From Owenia fusiformis (taxonomy: Eukaryota; Annelida; Polychaeta; Sabellida; Oweniidae), in NCBI GenBank assembly GCA_903813345.2, contig CAIIXF020000005.1, positions 19,657,375 to 19,721,374 on the forward strand: a stretch of 64,000 nucleotides of DNA, read 5' to 3'. Numbering within the stretch: position 1 is the stretch's first letter; every line of letters begins with the position of its first letter. The notes beneath the pieces were generated by a model that ran no database searches, was not told the DNA's origin, and saw only the letters and a program-made list of their open reading frames with translations. Below, piece after piece: positions 21,113 through 56,076 of the stretch. Position numbers and translations under genes: made by a program.

Positions 21113-22980
21113 TTATTGTTGCAGTTCATGATTAATTTTATCTAACAGAAAAACCAGCAACTCTCTTGCCTCCTCTAATGTGTTAGGGGTTGATTTTCCA
21201 CTTTCCTCCATAAGCATTTGGAATAATTCTTTGAAGTGTTCCTTGTTAGTTTCTACAACACAAGTATTGTCAGATTCTAACTGAGCAAATATTTCTTGGT
21301 CAATCTTTTGCAACACATCCTTATGTCCAAATTCTTCAGGGGCAAAGTACAGAATATCTGGTTTCCCATTAACTGAACTGACAGATTTTGATTTTTGAAT
21401 ATGGTGTGTATTCAACATTCTTTGCGTTGTGTCAAGTTCTCTTTGCAGTAGATCCATGTAACAATATCTCATACACTCAATGTCTAGTATGTTTGAATTG
21501 TCAATAATGCCAACATCTAACAGCTGGCGGCAGTGAGATATCCACATTGCTGCTCCATATATTGGAAATTTACTCCAGAAACTTTCTATTCTCTGGTTTG
21601 CAGTTGATTTTCCATACAGAAATGCAACTTTACATGAACAGTCATCATTTACAGAGCGTAGAACAGTTTGAAGCAGTTCAACCTTGACATTCTCAGTCCC
21701 CCGATCTGCGCGAACAATCTTTGGAATACCATTTACATTTTTAACACAATCGCAAAAGTATTTGCAAATTAACATAGAGTTTTTATTTGAAGATCCTGCT
21801 TTGAGCCACAATATTCTTCTACTGAATCCATCCAAGCATCCATGGACAGTTAAACCATATGGAGTTAGTTTATCCCAGCCATCAATATGCCATATATAGT
21901 TGCTCCCTTCAGATGTATATTGTCGCCTTTGTAAGCGTCTCGTTGATCGTTTGTGTACACCTTCTGGGTCAAGAACTGAGAGCAAACGGCGAATTGTTTC
22001 ATGATCTGTTTTCAGCCTGCAATTCACAAAAGCTGTCATACTTTATTTTATGCCAGAAAAAGGGGAGATAAAATAGTGAAATACAGTATAATGGTAAAGA
22101 ACTTTATGAGTATCTTATTGGGCGGGATGACAGGTACAAAACTGAGTTGACGGGAACAACTGAATTGATGGGTAACAGAAAATGAAACAACAGCACTCTG
22201 AGGTGACATATACCAGAAAATGAGATGACGAGGACCAAAAAGGGGAAAATACATGTACTGAGATTAAGATACGACACAACTTTTTTAACTTATGCCACAA
22301 GTGGCAACGGTTTCAAACGTCATGATGACATCTTTTTAATAATTGAGTTTGCCTTCAATGAAAACTAAGCGACAGGTACAGGTACTGAGATGACCTAGGT
22401 AACATGTATTGAGTACTGGTGTATGTTGAACTGACTTGATGGGCAGCATACAGTAGGTATTTTCAAGAAAAGTATTCAGTTGACGGCAGAATAGTTGCTG
22501 GCCTTAAAGTGATCTGATTGGCGGAATCACATTCCAGCCTATGCCTTCCCATACATGTACCTCATAAATGTGGGGCTGATTTTTCAAATCCAATCTCCAC
22601 AATTTTACAATCGGGATTCGGGGTACCAGATACTATTCTCGATTCCGGAATCAGGACATTGATACTTCCCCGATGGTAAAATTGTGGAGATTGATCAATC
22701 AATTGACTTACCCATGGACTTTTGTGATTTTGCCATGCATACTCCGGTATCCCATTGCTGACCCACTGCCATGATCTATCTCTTGAATGATAGCGTCAGC
22801 AACTGTGCCAATGGCAGTTTTATCGAATTTTCTTGAGAGCCCCATCTTCTTTAAATCCCTCTTGATCTGTCTCTCCGAAAGTGTAATTCCATGACGGAAC
22901 TTTAACAACATGCCGATCTCCTTGTACGTAAAACCGTCTTCAAAGTATGTGGCTATACATTCATCTCGATCTGACTCCAT
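21113..22980 (-). CDS. Integrase-type transposase, two exons, about 390 aa, apparently intact
   Basis: Exon 1 is 22980-22712 and ends CATGG before GTAAGT. Exon 2 is 22016-21113 and follows TTGCAG. The join restores KVHG-LKTDHETI in frame. The N-terminal 60 residues form a helix-turn-helix DNA-binding region (ECIATYFEDGFTYKEIGMLL), followed by a GSGSAMGYRSMHGKI segment typical of this family. The catalytic core is rve-like: first acid in WHIDGWDKL, second in RADRGTEN, third in NQRIESFW, with 39 residues between the second and third. The C-terminal 110 residues are family-specific. The enzyme would cut and join transposon ends. The 695-bp intron carries degenerate GAGATGAC/CTGAGTTGA motifs. An alternative start at 22039 inside the intron is less likely, because it would drop the DNA-binding exon. 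Confidence 0.8.
22590..22695. repeat. Hairpin-forming inverted repeat in the transposase intron
   Basis: CAATCTCCACAATTTTACAA near 22591 pairs with the reverse complement TTGTGGAGATTG near 22683, and CGGGATTCGGGG / CCGGAATC lies between. It may be a very small MITE or a folded RNA element in the intron. Confidence 0.55.
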
Positions 22981-24188
22981 TTCTTCTTCGATTATAAGTC
23001 ATGACACGCCGCATCTAGATTCTACAAAATCTCCTTTACAGAAGACTTTTGTAAAATTAAAATACTTAGGGTTAACCCAACTAATTGTTATAACATGCGT
23101 ATTCCCATACAAACGATCTGTCTTCAAGAGAAAACTAAGATTTGTGGACATGTTTTGCTATCATTGCATCATACCCAAGTATGTCCCCTGTCAGTCAAAA
23201 AAGTTTGAATCAAAACTCCCCACGAAAATCAAAAGATCTCACCTGTTGAAGACGCCATCTATAGAAAATGTCAAAAAATGTCATTCTGATTTTGACAGAT
23301 GGAGGCAGGTCAAAAAGGTCAAATTTTTTAAAGAAAATGCACCTTTATCACATCAAATCATGTCTCAGAGTTGGTCCACACATACACTTTTTCATTCATG
23401 TACTTACCAAAATCCAACCACTGGTGATGCTAATGTAATTACAATAATTGGACTATATTTTTGTTTTTATAATGCCATCTATTCGTCTTCCCACTCGGCG
23501 GAAGGATCTAATGGTTGTGTGTCTCCTAGTAGTCACCCATCCTTTAAGTTACAATTGTAATTTCCTCCAAAATGTAACCCCAAGTTGTTTTCTAGTAAAA
23601 TAATACAAACCGCAAGCAGATTCGACTATTTTTCCCAGATATATGAATGATTAAAGTTACCCATCCCCTTTCTGCAATTAGATGTTTTCCTGGGATATTG
23701 ACTAAAATTGGAACCTATGGCTAGATGTGTTGTGAGGTGTCTAGTTTGAGATGGGGAGGTAGTACAGAGCTGAATGAGCTATATCTGGAAAGCACATTTT
23801 GCCTAGAATCAATTTTTGTAATTTAAAGAAATAGGCAATTAATATCTCTTATTTATGCGCATATTTAATAACACAGGGTAGATTTTTGCGAAAAAATGCT
23901 TATTCGACACTTTTGGGAAATAGTACAGACCATCGTGACATTAAACTTTGTCAAATGATAGAACAATTCATGTGTTATCAATTACATAAACAAATTGTAA
24001 TCATTATTATTGCTTCTGAATGTTTACAGAGAAATATTTAGTATGGAGGATACAGAAAAATTGGTCATTTTCTCCAGTTGTTGTTCTACCCTGGGGAATA
24101 TTCATCAAAGAAAACCAAAACAACACACATTTCCAATTATAGGTCTCCCAATTGATAAATGATCATTCTGAACACTGTATTTGATTAC

Positions 24189-24692
24189 TTAGGGTTAAGT
24201 CAAGGTTAGGATTAGGGGTTAGGGTTAGGCTTGGGCTTAGGGTTAGGCTTTAGTTAGGACTAAGGGTAGTGTTGGGGCTAGGGTTAGGCCCTGGCTTAGG
24301 GTAAGGCTATAGTTAGGGTTAGGGGTAGTGTTGGGGTTAGGCTTAGGCTCTAGCTTAGGGTTAGGCTATAGTTAGGGTTAGTGTTGAGGTTAGAGTTAGG
24401 GGTTAGGGTTAGGCTCTGGCTTAGGGTTAGGCTATAGTTAGGGCTAATGTTGGGGTAAGGGGTTAGGGTTAGGGGTTAGGGTTAGACTCTGGCTTAGGGT
24501 TAGGCTGTAGTTAGGGTTAGGAATAGTGTTGGGGTTAGGGTTAGGGGTTAGGCTCTGGCTTAGGGTTAGGGTTAGGCTATAGTTAGGGTTAGGGGTAGTG
24601 TTGGTGTTCAGGTTAAGGGTTAGAGTTAGGCTCTGGCTTAGGGTTAGGCTATAGTTAGGGTTAGAGATATTGTTGGGGTTAGGGTTAAGTCA
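24189..24692 (+). repeat. Degenerate TTAGGG (telomere-like) repeat, first of three copies
   Basis: G-rich on the plus strand. It consists mainly of TTAGGG mixed with TTAGGC, TTAGGGG, CTATAGTTAGGG and TAGTGTTGGGG blocks. A higher-order period is visible as repeated GGCTCTGGCTTAGGGTTAGG and CTATAGTTAGGGTTAG. The same segment recurs at 26270-26773 and 28351-28854. Metazoan telomeres are usually perfect TTAGGG arrays, so this is interstitial, telomere-derived or merely telomere-like satellite DNA, not a chromosome end. Confidence 0.85.
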
Positions 24693-26269
24693 TGGCCAAT
24701 GATTTAGCCTTCTAGAGCAAAATTTGTGAAAATTCCAATAAAAATCATGGAAACAGTGGAAAATATGACCAAAGTAAAAAAAAGTTGACTCCTGGTTGGA
24801 GCCTATGACGGATGTGTTGGGAGATGTCTAGTTTGAGCTGGGGAGGTATTACAGAGCTGATTGAGCTATATCTGGATAGCACATTTTGCCTAGAATCAAT
24901 TTTTGTGATTTAGAAAAATAATCAATAAATTTCTCTAATTTATGCACATATTTGAATAACACGGGGTAAATTTTTGCGAAAAAATGCTTATTCAGCACTT
25001 TTTTGGGAAAAGCATGGACCATAGTGACATGAAACTTTGTCAAACGCATTGAGAGAGATGAAATTAATGAAAGTCCCAATAAAAACTGGAAATAGTTGAG
25101 AAATATGACCAAATTAAAAAAAAGTGGTACTCCAGAATGGGCGATAATAGGGTTAACCCAACTAATTGTTATAACATGCGTATTCCCATACAAACGATCT
25201 GTCTTCAAGAGAAAACTAAGATTTGTGGACATGTTTTGCTATCATTGCATCATACCCAAGTATGTCCCCTGTCAGTCAAAAAAGTTTGAATCAAAACTCC
25301 CCACGAAAATCAAAAGATCTCACCTGTTGAAGACGCCATCTATAGAAAATGTCAAAAAATGTCATTCTGATTTTGACAGATGGAGGCAGGTCAAAAAGGT
25401 CAAATTTTTTAAAGAAAATGCACCTTTATCACATCAAATCATGTCTCAGAGTTGGTCCACACATACACTTTTTCATTCATGTACTTACCAAAATCCAACC
25501 ACTGGTGATGCTAATGTAATTACAATAATTGGACTATATTTTTGTTTTTATAATGCCATCTATTCGTCTTCCCACTCGGCGGAAGGATCTAATGGTTGTG
25601 TGTCTCCTAGTAGTCACCCATCCTTTAAGTTACAATTGTAATTTCCTCCAAAATGTAACCCCAAGTTGTTTTCTAGTAAAATAATACAAACCGCAAGCAG
25701 ATTCGACTATTTTTCCCAGATATATGAATGATTAAAGTTACCCATCCCCTTTCTGCAATTAGATGTTTTCCTGGGATATTGACTAAAATTGGAACCTATG
25801 GCTAGATGTGTTGTGAGGTGTCTAGTTTGAGATGGGGAGGTAGTACAGAGCTGAATGAGCTATATCTGGAAAGCACATTTTGCCTAGAATCAATTTTTGT
25901 AATTTAAAGAAATAGGCAATTAATATCTCTTATTTATGCGCATATTTAATAACACAGGGTAGATTTTTGCGAAAAAATGCTTATTCGACACTTTTGGGAA
26001 ATAGTACAGACCATCGTGACATTAAACTTTGTCAAATGATAGAACAATTCATGTGTTATCAATTACATAAACAAATTGTAATCATTATTATTGCTTCTGA
26101 ATGTTTACAGAGAAATATTTAGTATGGAGGATACAGAAAAATTGGTCATTTTCTCCAGTTGTTGTTCTACCCTGGGGAATATTCATCAAAGAAAACCAAA
26201 ACAACACACATTTCCAATTATAGGTCTCCCAATTGATAAATGATCATTCTGAACACTGTATTTGATTAC

Positions 26270-26773
26270 TTAGGGTTAAGTCAAGGTTAGGATTAGGGGT
26301 TAGGGTTAGGCTTGGGCTTAGGGTTAGGCTTTAGTTAGGACTAAGGGTAGTGTTGGGGCTAGGGTTAGGCCCTGGCTTAGGGTAAGGCTATAGTTAGGGT
26401 TAGGGGTAGTGTTGGGGTTAGGCTTAGGCTCTAGCTTAGGGTTAGGCTATAGTTAGGGTTAGTGTTGAGGTTAGAGTTAGGGGTTAGGGTTAGGCTCTGG
26501 CTTAGGGTTAGGCTATAGTTAGGGCTAATGTTGGGGTAAGGGGTTAGGGTTAGGGGTTAGGGTTAGACTCTGGCTTAGGGTTAGGCTGTAGTTAGGGTTA
26601 GGAATAGTGTTGGGGTTAGGGTTAGGGGTTAGGCTCTGGCTTAGGGTTAGGGTTAGGCTATAGTTAGGGTTAGGGGTAGTGTTGGTGTTCAGGTTAAGGG
26701 TTAGAGTTAGGCTCTGGCTTAGGGTTAGGCTATAGTTAGGGTTAGAGATATTGTTGGGGTTAGGGTTAAGTCA
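26270..26773 (+). repeat. Degenerate TTAGGG repeat, second copy
   Basis: This is the same sequence as 24189-24692, displaced by 2,081 bp, within array unit 2. No difference was seen by eye. Confidence 0.85.
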
Positions 26774-28350
26774 TGGCCAATGATTTAGCCTTCTAGAGCA
26801 AAATTTGTGAAAATTCCAATAAAAATCATGGAAACAGTGGAAAATATGACCAAAGTAAAAAAAAGTTGACTCCTGGTTGGAGCCTATGACGGATGTGTTG
26901 GGAGATGTCTAGTTTGAGCTGGGGAGGTATTACAGAGCTGATTGAGCTATATCTGGATAGCACATTTTGCCTAGAATCAATTTTTGTGATTTAGAAAAAT
27001 AATCAATAAATTTCTCTAATTTATGCACATATTTGAATAACACGGGGTAAATTTTTGCGAAAAAATGCTTATTCAGCACTTTTTTGGGAAAAGCATGGAC
27101 CATAGTGACATGAAACTTTGTCAAACGCATTGAGAGAGATGAAATTAATGAAAGTCCCAATAAAAACTGGAAATAGTTGAGAAATATGACCAAATTAAAA
27201 AAAAGTGGTACTCCAGAATGGGCGATAATAGGGTTAACCCAACTAATTGTTATAACATGCGTATTCCCATACAAACGATCTGTCTTCAAGAGAAAACTAA
27301 GATTTGTGGACATGTTTTGCTATCATTGCATCATACCCAAGTATGTCCCCTGTCAGTCAAAAAAGTTTGAATCAAAACTCCCCACGAAAATCAAAAGATC
27401 TCACCTGTTGAAGACGCCATCTATAGAAAATGTCAAAAAATGTCATTCTGATTTTGACAGATGGAGGCAGGTCAAAAAGGTCAAATTTTTTAAAGAAAAT
27501 GCACCTTTATCACATCAAATCATGTCTCAGAGTTGGTCCACACATACACTTTTTCATTCATGTACTTACCAAAATCCAACCACTGGTGATGCTAATGTAA
27601 TTACAATAATTGGACTATATTTTTGTTTTTATAATGCCATCTATTCGTCTTCCCACTCGGCGGAAGGATCTAATGGTTGTGTGTCTCCTAGTAGTCACCC
27701 ATCCTTTAAGTTACAATTGTAATTTCCTCCAAAATGTAACCCCAAGTTGTTTTCTAGTAAAATAATACAAACCGCAAGCAGATTCGACTATTTTTCCCAG
27801 ATATATGAATGATTAAAGTTACCCATCCCCTTTCTGCAATTAGATGTTTTCCTGGGATATTGACTAAAATTGGAACCTATGGCTAGATGTGTTGTGAGGT
27901 GTCTAGTTTGAGATGGGGAGGTAGTACAGAGCTGAATGAGCTATATCTGGAAAGCACATTTTGCCTAGAATCAATTTTTGTAATTTAAAGAAATAGGCAA
28001 TTAATATCTCTTATTTATGCGCATATTTAATAACACAGGGTAGATTTTTGCGAAAAAATGCTTATTCGACACTTTTGGGAAATAGTACAGACCATCGTGA
28101 CATTAAACTTTGTCAAATGATAGAACAATTCATGTGTTATCAATTACATAAACAAATTGTAATCATTATTATTGCTTCTGAATGTTTACAGAGAAATATT
28201 TAGTATGGAGGATACAGAAAAATTGGTCATTTTCTCCAGTTGTTGTTCTACCCTGGGGAATATTCATCAAAGAAAACCAAAACAACACACATTTCCAATT
28301 ATAGGTCTCCCAATTGATAAATGATCATTCTGAACACTGTATTTGATTAC

Positions 28351-28854
28351 TTAGGGTTAAGTCAAGGTTAGGATTAGGGGTTAGGGTTAGGCTTGGGCTT
28401 AGGGTTAGGCTTTAGTTAGGACTAAGGGTAGTGTTGGGGCTAGGGTTAGGCCCTGGCTTAGGGTAAGGCTATAGTTAGGGTTAGGGGTAGTGTTGGGGTT
28501 AGGCTTAGGCTCTAGCTTAGGGTTAGGCTATAGTTAGGGTTAGTGTTGAGGTTAGAGTTAGGGGTTAGGGTTAGGCTCTGGCTTAGGGTTAGGCTATAGT
28601 TAGGGCTAATGTTGGGGTAAGGGGTTAGGGTTAGGGGTTAGGGTTAGACTCTGGCTTAGGGTTAGGCTGTAGTTAGGGTTAGGAATAGTGTTGGGGTTAG
28701 GGTTAGGGGTTAGGCTCTGGCTTAGGGTTAGGGTTAGGCTATAGTTAGGGTTAGGGGTAGTGTTGGTGTTCAGGTTAAGGGTTAGAGTTAGGCTCTGGCT
28801 TAGGGTTAGGCTATAGTTAGGGTTAGAGATATTGTTGGGGTTAGGGTTAAGTCA
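28351..28854 (+). repeat. Degenerate TTAGGG repeat, third copy
   Basis: This is the same sequence as 24189-24692, displaced by 4,162 bp, within array unit 3. The partial fourth unit stops before reaching this segment. Confidence 0.85.
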
Positions 28855-30871
28855 TGGCCAATGATTTAGCCTTCTAGAGCAAAATTTGTGAAAATTCCAA
28901 TAAAAATCATGGAAACAGTGGAAAATATGACCAAAGTAAAAAAAAGTTGACTCCTGGTTGGAGCCTATGACGGATGTGTTGGGAGATGTCTAGTTTGAGC
29001 TGGGGAGGTATTACAGAGCTGATTGAGCTATATCTGGATAGCACATTTTGCCTAGAATCAATTTTTGTGATTTAGAAAAATAATCAATAAATTTCTCTAA
29101 TTTATGCACATATTTGAATAACACGGGGTAAATTTTTGCGAAAAAATGCTTATTCAGCACTTTTTTGGGAAAAGCATGGACCATAGTGACATGAAACTTT
29201 GTCAAACGCATTGAGAGAGATGAAATTAATGAAAGTCCCAATAAAAACTGGAAATAGTTGAGAAATATGACCAAATTAAAAAAAAGTGGTACTCCAGAAT
29301 GGGCGATAATAGGGTTAACCCAACTAATTGTTATAACATGCGTATTCCCATACAAACGATCTGTCTTCAAGAGAAAACTAAGATTTGTGGACATGTTTTG
29401 CTATCATTGCATCATACCCAAGTATGTCCCCTGTCAGTCAAAAAAGTTTGAATCAAAACTCCCCACGAAAATCAAAAGATCTCACCTGTTGAAGACGCCA
29501 TCTATAGAAAATGTCAAAAAATGTCATTCTGATTTTGACAGATGGAGGCAGGTCAAAAAGGTCAAATTTTTTAAAGAAAATGCACCTTTATCACATCAAA
29601 TCATGTCTCAGAGTTGGTCCACACATACACTTTTTCATTCATGTACTTACCAAAATCCAACCACTGGTGATGCTAATGTAATTACAATAATTGGACTATA
29701 TTTTTGTTTTTATAATGCCATCTATTCGTCTTCCCACTCGGCGGAAGGATCTAATGGTTGTGTGTCTCCTTATGCATTTTCAATATTAGTTTTGTAAAAT
29801 TATTTTTTATTTTGCAAAATTATTTTTATAATTCTATACTTTTGGAAAATTATTTTGAAAATAATATTTTGAATTGCAAAAGTCCCATCGTATTTTATAA
29901 AACTATTTTTAAAATCTGTAAACTAATTTGATTTCTTTAAAGTAATCTAGGTATTTTTCCATAAATATAAAAAATAAATAAATTGAAAAATGAATTTCGA
30001 AATTACAAAAATCAAATCCTGTTTCATTCAAGTTTTTAGATTTTAGATAAGTATTTTGTGAATTTTTATAAGTTTTTTAGATTTAAAACAGAAAAATCGA
30101 TTTTTCATTTAATATTTTGATATATTACAAAACTAAAATTGTGTTTTATTAAAGTTTTTAGATTTTATATAAGTACTTTGTGAATTTTTATAAGTTTTTT
30201 TGAGATTTGAAAAATTAAAATTGATTTTTTTTTAATTTGAAAAATATGTCCCTTTTAAAGCTTCGTACTCCTATAATCCGTTATCAGGCTCTCGATATGA
30301 CTTCTATTGATACAATAAGTCTAACATTTATCATTTGAAGTTGTCGAAAAAGTCAATAAATTGGGTCAACATAAATATATTTCTATCAGCTTTAGAACAG
30401 TATATGGAGTATTGAAATGATTGCATTATTAATGAAAATATTAACATTAGAGGGATATAATGGTAGTTACTCCAAAATCGAAGTGACATTACAAAAGTCC
30501 CGTTTATCGATTGAAATAATTGAATTATCTACTCATTTGTGTATCATCCATGCATAGTTCGAGTAGTATTTTAAAGTAAGACTTACTATAAAAGTTTTCT
30601 CCTTTTGGGCCGTCCTCTATGTTGGTTGTCTCTTATGATATGTGATATGTAGAATATAGAGCCAAGGTCAGATCAGATGAGATCACCGAGAATTAATTCG
30701 CCTTCGGTACTTGCCCAAGAAAATCTGTATAAGAATGTATTTTAAATGTGATTTAATTGATTACATACAACATTTTCATCATGCGAACTTACCTTTCAAT
30801 CCTTTTCGGAGTATATGTTTTCGAAAGAATTGAATTTAATGTTAAATATGTTTATCATAAATGTTTAAGAG

Positions 30872-54780: not shown

Positions 54781-56076
54781 ATGGGGACAGAAATTGGAGG
54801 AAGAATACACGATGACGTCCATAACAAGGTTCGCCTCATCTCCATATCAGACTCAAGGTTTACCCGACAACGGGAACGTCAATATTTAACAAGATACAAT
54901 GAAGAGCAGCAACTTCAAATTCCCCGTAGAATCCTAGCACGCCATAGTCTTTGTACAAATCTTAAAAAACGCATTTCAAAAACAGAATTCACTTTATCAA
55001 AATCATTGACAGAAAGCAAACTTGATAGGTATAAAAGTGTTTGTTTCGGATTGAACTCCCCATGGAAAACACGTTCTGGTACCCAGTGGGAACATTTGTA
55101 TGGGAAGTCAAAAAGTGCGCCGCTGAAAAAGAACGGTAAGCTAAGTGAACCCATTTTGCGAACTGCTGATTCTCGACCAAACACCATCGGAAATTCTCAA
55201 AATTACACTACGGATACTCCAAGTTACCAGCGCGAAGCAACTTTATCGGAGAGTGTTTCACCACCAAGACTTCACCGCGAGACAACCATAGCAGACAGTG
55301 TTGCTCTTCCCACGCTCCGACCCGATACAAGGATGGTTACTCTCCGACAACTCTCGGAGATCCTCAATCAGTCGGATAAAACAGACAAAGACCACATAAA
55401 GGTGAACATCAACCATATACCAAACGGATATCCAAATATCACGGTGAACCTGAACAATGATGTGCGAATTGCGAGGAAGCCCCATTGGTTCGAGGATTCT
55501 AAGTCAATGGAAAAGCCTGGAAATGACAACGATGATGTCTCGTCCATACATAGCTCCATACTTGAAGAGCAACTAAACAAAGAAAGACACGAGAAATTCT
55601 TAGTAAAAACTGAGCTTAATACTGCGTCTTGTTTTGTACACCCCCTGAATAAGAAGTACCTAAAGGAATTGGACAGAAAGCAAATGGCAACACGAACGAG
55701 GGTAGAACATTGGATGGCTAACAATCCAGTTGGTGAGCAAGCAAATAACAATGAGATTGCGGAAGATGGTTGGCTTGAAATAACCACAGAGGAACAGAAA
55801 TATCATAACGAATCTCAATGGATTTATCAAATTGAAGAAACTCCAGACTACTTTGAAAAATTTCGAAAGGAACTCAAATTGGAACGAAATGAAACAGCTA
55901 GTGAAAGGAGCGCTAAAAATAGGGCAGCCGAGAGAAAAAAGTTACTGTATTATATGAGGCTCAAAAGAAAACAGCGAATGGGTAAACCAAACGAAACAGA
56001 CGATAAATCTGAAACATCAAAAACTCCTGCTAAAAATAAGAATGCTAAAATCGTAAATAAAACAGATATAAAATAA
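54781..56076 (+). CDS. Uncharacterised protein, 431 aa, no intron in the visible frame
   Basis: A long frame with ordinary coding composition in a region where other frames are short. The protein is hydrophilic and rich in K, R, E, N and T. The N-terminal third is basic (DSRFTRQRERQYLTRYNEEQ). The middle is serine/threonine-rich with a repeated LRPDT/LHRETT-like pattern near residues 150-185. Residues 320-345 contain EDGWLEITTEEQKYHNESQW. The tail is strongly charged (RAAERKKLLYYMRLKRKQRM, then lysine-rich). No signal peptide or membrane segment is seen, and helical or disordered structure is likely. The frame is also open upstream of the ATG to a TTTTTCAG acceptor at about 54714, so coding may start in an earlier exon. 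An AATAAA polyadenylation signal lies at 56146-56151. I do not recognise the family. Confidence 0.7.
   Translation: MGTEIGGRIHDDVHNKVRLISISDSRFTRQRERQYLTRYNEEQQLQIPRRILARHSLCTNLKKRISKTEFTLSKSLTESKLDRYKSVCFGLNSPWKTRSGTQWEHLYGKSKSAPLKKNGKLSEPILRTADSRPNTIGNSQNYTTDTPSYQREATLSESVSPPRLHRETTIADSVALPTLRPDTRMVTLRQLSEILNQSDKTDKDHIKVNINHIPNGYPNITVNLNNDVRIARKPHWFEDSKSMEKPGNDNDDVSSIHSSILEEQLNKERHEKFLVKTELNTASCFVHPLNKKYLKELDRKQMATRTRVEHWMANNPVGEQANNNEIAEDGWLEITTEEQKYHNESQWIYQIEETPDYFEKFRKELKLERNETASERSAKNRAAERKKLLYYMRLKRKQRMGKPNETDDKSETSKTPAKNKNAKIVNKTDIK

Follow-up and report, generated by a model that had tools for sequence, protein, structure and literature searches.

A trimeric, telomere-repeat-bearing array in Owenia fusiformis as a probable non-autonomous KolobokP-type DNA transposon

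A 64,000-nucleotide stretch of the annelid Owenia fusiformis (assembly GCA_903813345.2, contig CAIIXF020000005.1, positions 19,657,375 to 19,721,374; hereafter the window) contains a 2,081-bp tandem array with telomere-like DNA lodged inside a DNA transposon. This raises the question of whether the array is a satellite that was inserted or grew as part of its host transposon and might be carried around by it, as a sequence-only reading had proposed, or whether it is mobile in its own right. The evidence presented here strongly favours the latter, and the array is, with high confidence, a non-autonomous KolobokP-type DNA transposon in the form of a trimer, (LTDR-INT)3-LTDR. Here, LTDR denotes a 458-bp long terminal direct repeat and INT an internal region of about 1.62 kb.

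The interval 23067-29770 consists of three 2,081-bp units, which are identical letter for letter, and a 461-bp tail equal to the start of the unit. The exact period and the likeness of the copies were therefore recognised correctly from the sequence alone. The count of 3.2 units also holds, but the fraction is not a ragged end, as it is the terminal repeat closing the element. The limits need a small correction, since the element proper covers 23069-29769 between two 3-bp duplications of TTA. It is bounded by a 458-bp module (GGG...TCC), so that the architecture is (458 bp + 1.62-kb internal)3 + 458 bp. The LTDR runs from GGGTTAACCC to GTGTGTCTCC, and the ends of the element are GG...CC, i.e. 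5'-RR and YY-3', as in KolobokP. The left repeat is followed by TAGTAGTCACCC in the window and by TAGTAGTGACCC at other loci. The INT starts with TAGTAGTG (in the window TAGTAGTC) and ends with GCGATAATA where an LTDR adjoins. Each unit includes a block of degenerate TTAGGG repeats, whose previously estimated length of about 500 bp agrees with the 499 bp determined here; perfect rotated hexamers account for 302 of the 499 bases, and no perfect run exceeds two hexamers. The only open reading frame (ORF) of the array that was tested, at 25096-25641 and spanning an INT-LTDR-INT junction, had no Pfam match, and the window INT has no recognised coding capacity. The parts of the element are as follows.

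23066-23068, no strand: left target-site duplication TTA, equal to 29770-29772; all six sibling empty sites that were read have TTA once
23069-23526, plus strand: LTDR copy 1, outer left end, 458 bp; identical ends at dozens of loci, with a 3-bp target-site duplication
23527-25149, plus strand: INT copy 1, 1,623 bp, TAGTAGTCACCC...GCGATAATA; its tips resemble the INT of the coding element on contig C10
24189-24687, plus strand: degenerate TTAGGG block of unit 1
25150-25607, plus strand: LTDR copy 2, identical to copy 1
25608-27230, plus strand: INT copy 2, identical to copy 1
26270-26768, plus strand: degenerate TTAGGG block of unit 2
27231-27688, plus strand: LTDR copy 3, identical to copy 1
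27689-29311, plus strand: INT copy 3, identical to copy 1
28351-28849, plus strand: degenerate TTAGGG block of unit 3
29312-29769, plus strand: LTDR copy 4, outer right end, identical to copy 1
29770-29772, no strand: right target-site duplication TTA, equal to the left TTA; siblings have a single TTA

The array does sit within another transposon, as had been noted, and the siblings of this host preserve the site before insertion. Seventeen loci share the left host flank (22660-23065) at 100% identity, which points to a very recent burst of the host family. All six sibling loci that were read (L086-L091) hold AAAATAC-TTA-TGCATTTT exactly and uninterrupted. On the left side, 736 to 1,909 bp per sibling were compared with the window copy and showed 0-2 base differences; in one sibling (L090), some 0.5 kb of additional sequence lies on this side. 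Right of the site, 0-1 differences over about 500 bp were found in four of the six siblings, and four bases plus one gap in the other two (L088, L089). Together with the TTA duplication, the empty site in all six siblings shows that the array was inserted precisely, without loss of 40 bp, and recently, as the sequence-only reading had also held for its age. The apparent gap of about 40 bp at the junction arose because the comparison relied on the transposon copy at 243-885 of the window. The flanks had been described as continuous in that copy, which is a diverged relative with 68% identity over 29892-30267. The insertion of the element is younger than the host copy carrying it.

The host family itself does not spread the array. 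According to a list of perfect element starts, none of the 16 other flank-identical host loci has one alongside. Array copies outside this transposon family and without shared flanks had been named in advance as evidence against carriage by the host, and such copies are what was found, since the host flank is absent from all other fetched loci of the element. The term mobile satellite is therefore broadly apt, but the mobility comes from the array, which is its own transposon and duplicated TTA in a single host copy. With up to 3 mismatches allowed, the host's 21-bp right terminus has just two occurrences in the window, at 241 and 30247; its left terminus was looked for and not found. The host features in the window are the following.

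21160-23065, minus strand: host transposon left of the insertion, 0-2 mismatches to the siblings compared; 21160 is the end of the compared loci and not a limit of the element
21113-22039, minus strand: host ORF with an integrase core domain (PF24764, Pfam 2e-31)
29773-30267, minus strand: host transposon right of the insertion with the terminus TACGAAGCTTTAAAAGGGACA (minus strand); sibling alignments end at 30267-30269, and the same terminus lies at 241

A search of the genome (498 Mb, 525 contigs) revealed a large family of such elements. Among the best 12 of 269 candidates, matches to the 2,081-bp unit lie on contigs C1, C2, C4, C5, C6, C9 and C478, and in several cases the unit is followed by a second copy of its first ~460 bp alone. 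When the 458-bp module was searched by itself, it was often found without the remainder of the unit. A 25-base probe of the LTDR start matched 157 places with at most 3 mismatches, and the reversed control matched none. From part of these places, 38 outer end pairs were obtained at fetched loci, of which one was a duplicate (L035 = L074), leaving 37 distinct loci. Not counted are loci whose left end is internal (L037, L038, L059, L073) and three fragments (L047, L048, L078) that yielded no pair for want of a right end. Reading also took in parts of the C12 trimer, of the C7 array and of the left side of C1:8067609, and stretches of loci such as L034, L037 and L038.

An exact 3-bp target-site duplication flanks 34 of the 38 pairs (33 of the 37 distinct loci), with 21 different triplets, and a 4-bp duplication fits none of the 38. 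By comparison, left and right triplets taken from different loci agree in 59 of 1,482 pairings (4%; 39 loci, L073 included). Sorted by form, the 37 loci comprise 24 solo LTDRs, six monomers, three LTDR dimers, two trimers (the window and L040), one broken monomer and one rearranged copy (L056). Monomers are 2,545 bp long at L042 and L045. Larger forms were found as well: both C9 and C478 hold satellite-sized arrays, and the one on C9 extends over 63.6 kb (30369443-30433012) with 33 INT starts and is flanked by TAC on either side. For the C7 array, one end was read.

Some copies have a more complex history. One of the solos (L077) is split by about 600 bp of other DNA (L077:1287-1887). By eye, several LTDR insertions (L065, L071, L074 and L075) seem to sit, in either orientation, within copies of a single other repeat family, a hint of either a preferred target or a merely abundant repeat. 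An INT-LTDR copy without a left LTDR lies at C4:25971464 and C4:25988170-25989390 (L079, L059). It has TTA on both outer sides, and about 16.7 kb of other DNA apparently interrupts its telomere-like block.

Since identical units are hard to count and the copy number of three rests on the assembly, the locus might in truth hold one unit or another number. This is improbable. The boundaries, the target-site duplication and the empty sites are independent of the unit number, and C1 and C12 likewise hold trimers, with other variants and other duplications; the one on C12 lies near the start of the contig and is flanked by GTA on both sides.

A coding partner was found with a profile search of the genome with PF05551, which gave 54 matches. 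One of them, at C10:31650310, has an LTDR of the element family upstream of it (L092) and a right LTDR after it (L094). This element covers C10:31646890-31651211 (4,322 bp) with TAC on both sides. Its LTDRs are 97.4% and 97.5% identical to those of the window and do not differ from each other over 447 bp, and 11 differences from the window LTDR are common to both. The first 151 bp of its INT, up to the end of the fetched piece, are 86% identical to the window INT, and the last 107 bp are 80% identical. The nuclease ORF (L094:57-452, minus strand) adjoins the right LTDR on the strand opposite to the transposase and encodes a His-Me type, I-PpoI-like domain (PF05551, 1.1e-9; I-PpoI, 0.004). An 801-bp piece from the middle is open on the forward strand, and its 266-aa fragment matches PF20700 (9.2e-35). 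In this fragment, the motif TDAMYD is followed by a CCHC pattern (residues 130-151) and then by TTDGDA; we read the two motifs as probably holding catalytic aspartates, with the CCHC pattern after the first D. As a separate observation, His-Me nuclease domains repeat on C313, C513, C443 and C418 at spacings of about 3,345 and 3,820 bp, on C313 and C513 over tens of kilobases. Judged by the domain matches, such spacings are as expected for INT-INT and LTDR-INT multimers of another autonomous KolobokP family.

This anatomy and a partner with near-identical LTDRs lead to the assignment to a non-autonomous KolobokP family. KolobokP elements have been described as composite-like DNA transposons with an LTDR-INT-LTDR plan, which occur in Owenia fusiformis among other species (Kojima & Bao 2022, PMC9587614; this and the following statements refer to the main text). 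Their LTDRs are about 450 or 660 bp long, with RR...YY ends and an own perfect or imperfect terminal inverted repeat of 11-18 bp, and their solos show target-site duplications of 3-4 or 4-5 bp with little target preference. Solos, (LTDR-INT)n-LTDR multimers, INT-INT and INT-LTDR forms are reported, with INT-INT junctions losing 3 or 4 bp and other excisions 1-5. Autonomous members of 4-5 kb encode, on opposite strands, a DDD/E transposase with a CCHC finger after the first D and a His-Me finger nuclease (PMC9587614). The family described here shares the LTDR-INT-LTDR plan, the LTDR of about 450 bp, the RR...YY ends and the 3-bp duplications without a fixed target. All of the published forms (solos, multimers, INT-INT and INT-LTDR) are present in this genome, as is a 4,322-bp partner with transposase and nuclease on opposite strands. 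It is unlike the generic Kolobok superfamily, which has 4-bp TTAA duplications, as the 3-bp duplications found here have many sequences. Unlike KolobokP as presented in that main text, it has a degenerate telomere-like block in the INT, LTDR-TAATA-LTDR dimers and one array of 63.6 kb; the terms 'telomer', 'satellite' and 'LTDR-LTDR' do not occur there. A literature search for KolobokP found nothing beyond this paper. The element is accordingly a relative of an already described kind, and its family may already be in the KolobokP family list.

Several points weigh against this assignment, which is based on architecture, target-site duplications and domain matches. The 266 transposase residues that were read do not include the C/DxxH motif and the third catalytic residue, and PF20700 is named Mutator-like and alone cannot separate Kolobok from MuDR. 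The terminal inverted repeat of the LTDR is weak, with 11 of 19 positions matching, a value that 0.6% of 20,000 pairs drawn at random from this sequence also reach. The loss at INT-INT junctions is 5 bp here, compared with the 3-4 bp given for KolobokP. Four of the 37 distinct loci have no exact duplication (L044, L052, L064 and L054), although for L054 the right end used was internal. Mobilisation of the window element in trans by a C10-type transposase is a step that we infer. Under the KolobokP reading, the cuts made by transposase from autonomous copies would fall at the outermost ends (GGG and TCC), and the element would be inserted with a 3-bp stagger. Exchange between LTDRs, or the insertion of LTDR-INT circles, would then alter the number of units and yield solos, trimers and satellite-sized arrays. 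The nuclease may provoke such exchange, in line with the proposal in the main text of PMC9587614. The window trimer may have been inserted as a trimer or may have grown from a monomer after insertion.

The similarity of the LTDRs within loci is a further property of the family. LTDRs are identical within L040 (four), L042, L045, L060, L063, L065 and the window (four), and the two outer LTDRs are identical in the C9 array and likewise in the C12 array. The LTDRs of L076 are 3 bases and a 29-bp gap apart, and the partners in LTDR dimers differ by one (L058), one (L070) and four (L055) bases. Compared with the nearest LTDR from a different locus, the copies listed show 0-3 base differences, and L054 shows 7. 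Not every pair is private to its locus, as the LTDR of L060 equals three solos, that of L065 one LTDR of L070 and that of L040 one LTDR of L058. Three variants were found solely in the window among 50 young LTDRs tabulated. Since they are present in all four window LTDRs, they most likely came from the donor. The window INT differs from INTs elsewhere at 10-27 of about 1,113 bases, with the telomere-like block excluded. The mostly identical and often private pairs suggest that both ends of a copy derive from a single one, often or at each move, while local gene conversion may be an alternative source of the identity.

Because of these identical pairs, a TRIM or other non-coding LTR (long terminal repeat) retrotransposon was long entertained. 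It would have been tandemised by LTR-LTR recombination, with both LTRs rewritten from one RNA in each round, and reverse transcription would indeed yield identical pairs with locus-private variants. LTR retrotransposons have TG...CA ends and a tRNA primer site of the TGG type after the left repeat. Here, the ends are GGG...TCC, the duplication is 3 bp and the sequence after the left repeat holds no TGG-type primer site. This reading was dropped once the C10 partner was found, whose near-identical ends enclose a DDE transposase domain and a homing-type nuclease, and it is largely refuted and now very improbable. The likeness is nevertheless close, as the bivalve TRIMs (biv-TRIM) also show direct terminal repeats, solos, repeat-sharing TDRx_I(x-1) tandem arrays and no clear tRNA primer site (PMC6934838, as far as the sections consulted extend). 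They are Class I and shorter, with terminal repeats of 100-250 bp in a whole of less than 1 kb, and these sections name no DDE-transposase partner for them.

Even less probable is a satellite that grew in the host, or recombined into it, without a transposase. Units are identical or nearly so within a locus and differ between loci, as local amplification would give, and the C9 and C478 arrays are of satellite size. This does not account for the fixed outer ends and 3-bp duplications shared by solos, monomers and arrays alike or for the precise empty sites. The duplications at 33 of 37 loci refute the satellite explanation for the insertion step; for later changes in unit number it may still hold. 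Finally, an interstitial telomeric sequence, in which telomerase or break repair would have added the block and the block would be the cause of the array, has hardly any probability left. Long perfect TTAGGG runs do exist in the genome (those listed lie near one end of C7), but copies aligned from several chromosomes have the same INT sequence on either side of the block, which was thus inherited with the element and not added at each site. Most likely, the TTAGGG block is passive cargo. Among the matches listed, about the first 100 of 18,626, the perfect TTAGGG run on C7 (39760219-39760860 of 39776147, minus strand) lies about 16 kb before the right end of the contig, in the orientation opposite to that expected of a right telomere.

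Two further candidates were rejected. For a hammerhead or retrozyme, Rfam gave three matches on 22900-25800, all far below the gathering scores (E 2.9-4), and no CTGANGA core is present on either strand of one unit. For a tRNA-related origin, ARAGORN (bacterial code) found no tRNA in the window. Outside the element, a 431-aa ORF at 54781-56076 (plus strand) has no Pfam match.

The junctions between modules provide information on how the different forms might arise. The INT-INT junction GCGATAGTAGTG, which is 5 bp shorter than two abutted INTs, was found at at least 21 places on six contigs, L056 included; in the C9 array, repeat spacings of 2081 and 1618 bp occur. A further junction at C9:30426769 reads GCGATAATAGTG (GCGATAATAGTGACCC) and could reflect either a single substitution or the loss of 5 bp on the side of the right-hand rather than the left INT. 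The LTDR-LTDR junction is TCC-TAATA-GGG at three of three places in an exact search with spacers of 0-14, which mutated junctions would escape. The 5 bp lost in INT-INT are the 5 bp kept in LTDR-LTDR, and the two junctions are therefore reciprocal. At least two of the LTDR dimers have different LTDR variants, which argues for repeated origin. The idea of the INT as an independent element inserting at TA was dropped because the base before it fits an LTDR (C) or an INT (A). Among 100 of 105 matches listed, the sole exception is C4:25971464 (T), which fits the INT-LTDR form after loss of the left LTDR.

These reciprocal footprints fit a circular intermediate. That KolobokP moves and multiplies via a DNA circle, spreading ready-made tandem arrays with telomere-like DNA across chromosomes, is put forward as a tentative possibility. 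In such a model, the 3' end of an LTDR (TCC) would be joined 5 nt upstream of a 5' end (GGG), releasing LTDR or INT circles and leaving INT-INT without TAATA and LTDR pairs linked by TAATA, and a single LTDR could template both ends of a new copy. By analogy with the copy-out-paste-in of bacterial IS3 and IS256 and with the translocatable units of IS26 (PMC9587614, main text), circles with abutted ends and a few flanking bases between them would produce such a spacer and footprint. In those systems the spacer typically has the length of the target-site duplication, unlike here, where a 5-bp spacer and a 3-bp duplication count against the model. The left side of the C4 INT-LTDR copy (GAATTAGTAGTG) also argues against it, as it fits a 2-bp rather than a 5-bp loss. 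Recombination or microhomology at the shared TA could be an alternative source of the same junctions, although a deletion at TA would have to strike the same inner TA every time.

What appeared to be a satellite in a transposon is a clean composite-like eukaryotic DNA transposon caught soon after insertion. Its less expected features are the TTAGGG block in each unit, the mostly identical and often private end pairs and the reciprocal 5-bp footprints. A narrow, partial literature search at title and abstract level found no published description of telomere repeats inside DNA transposons. A single genome offers the empty site, the coding partner and a series from a single end to a 63.6-kb array, and the footprints together with the locus-private LTDR pairs make movement via a circle testable. 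The family also shows one way in which telomere-like DNA is spread to sites inside chromosomes, a point of importance wherever these are taken for old telomere fusions.

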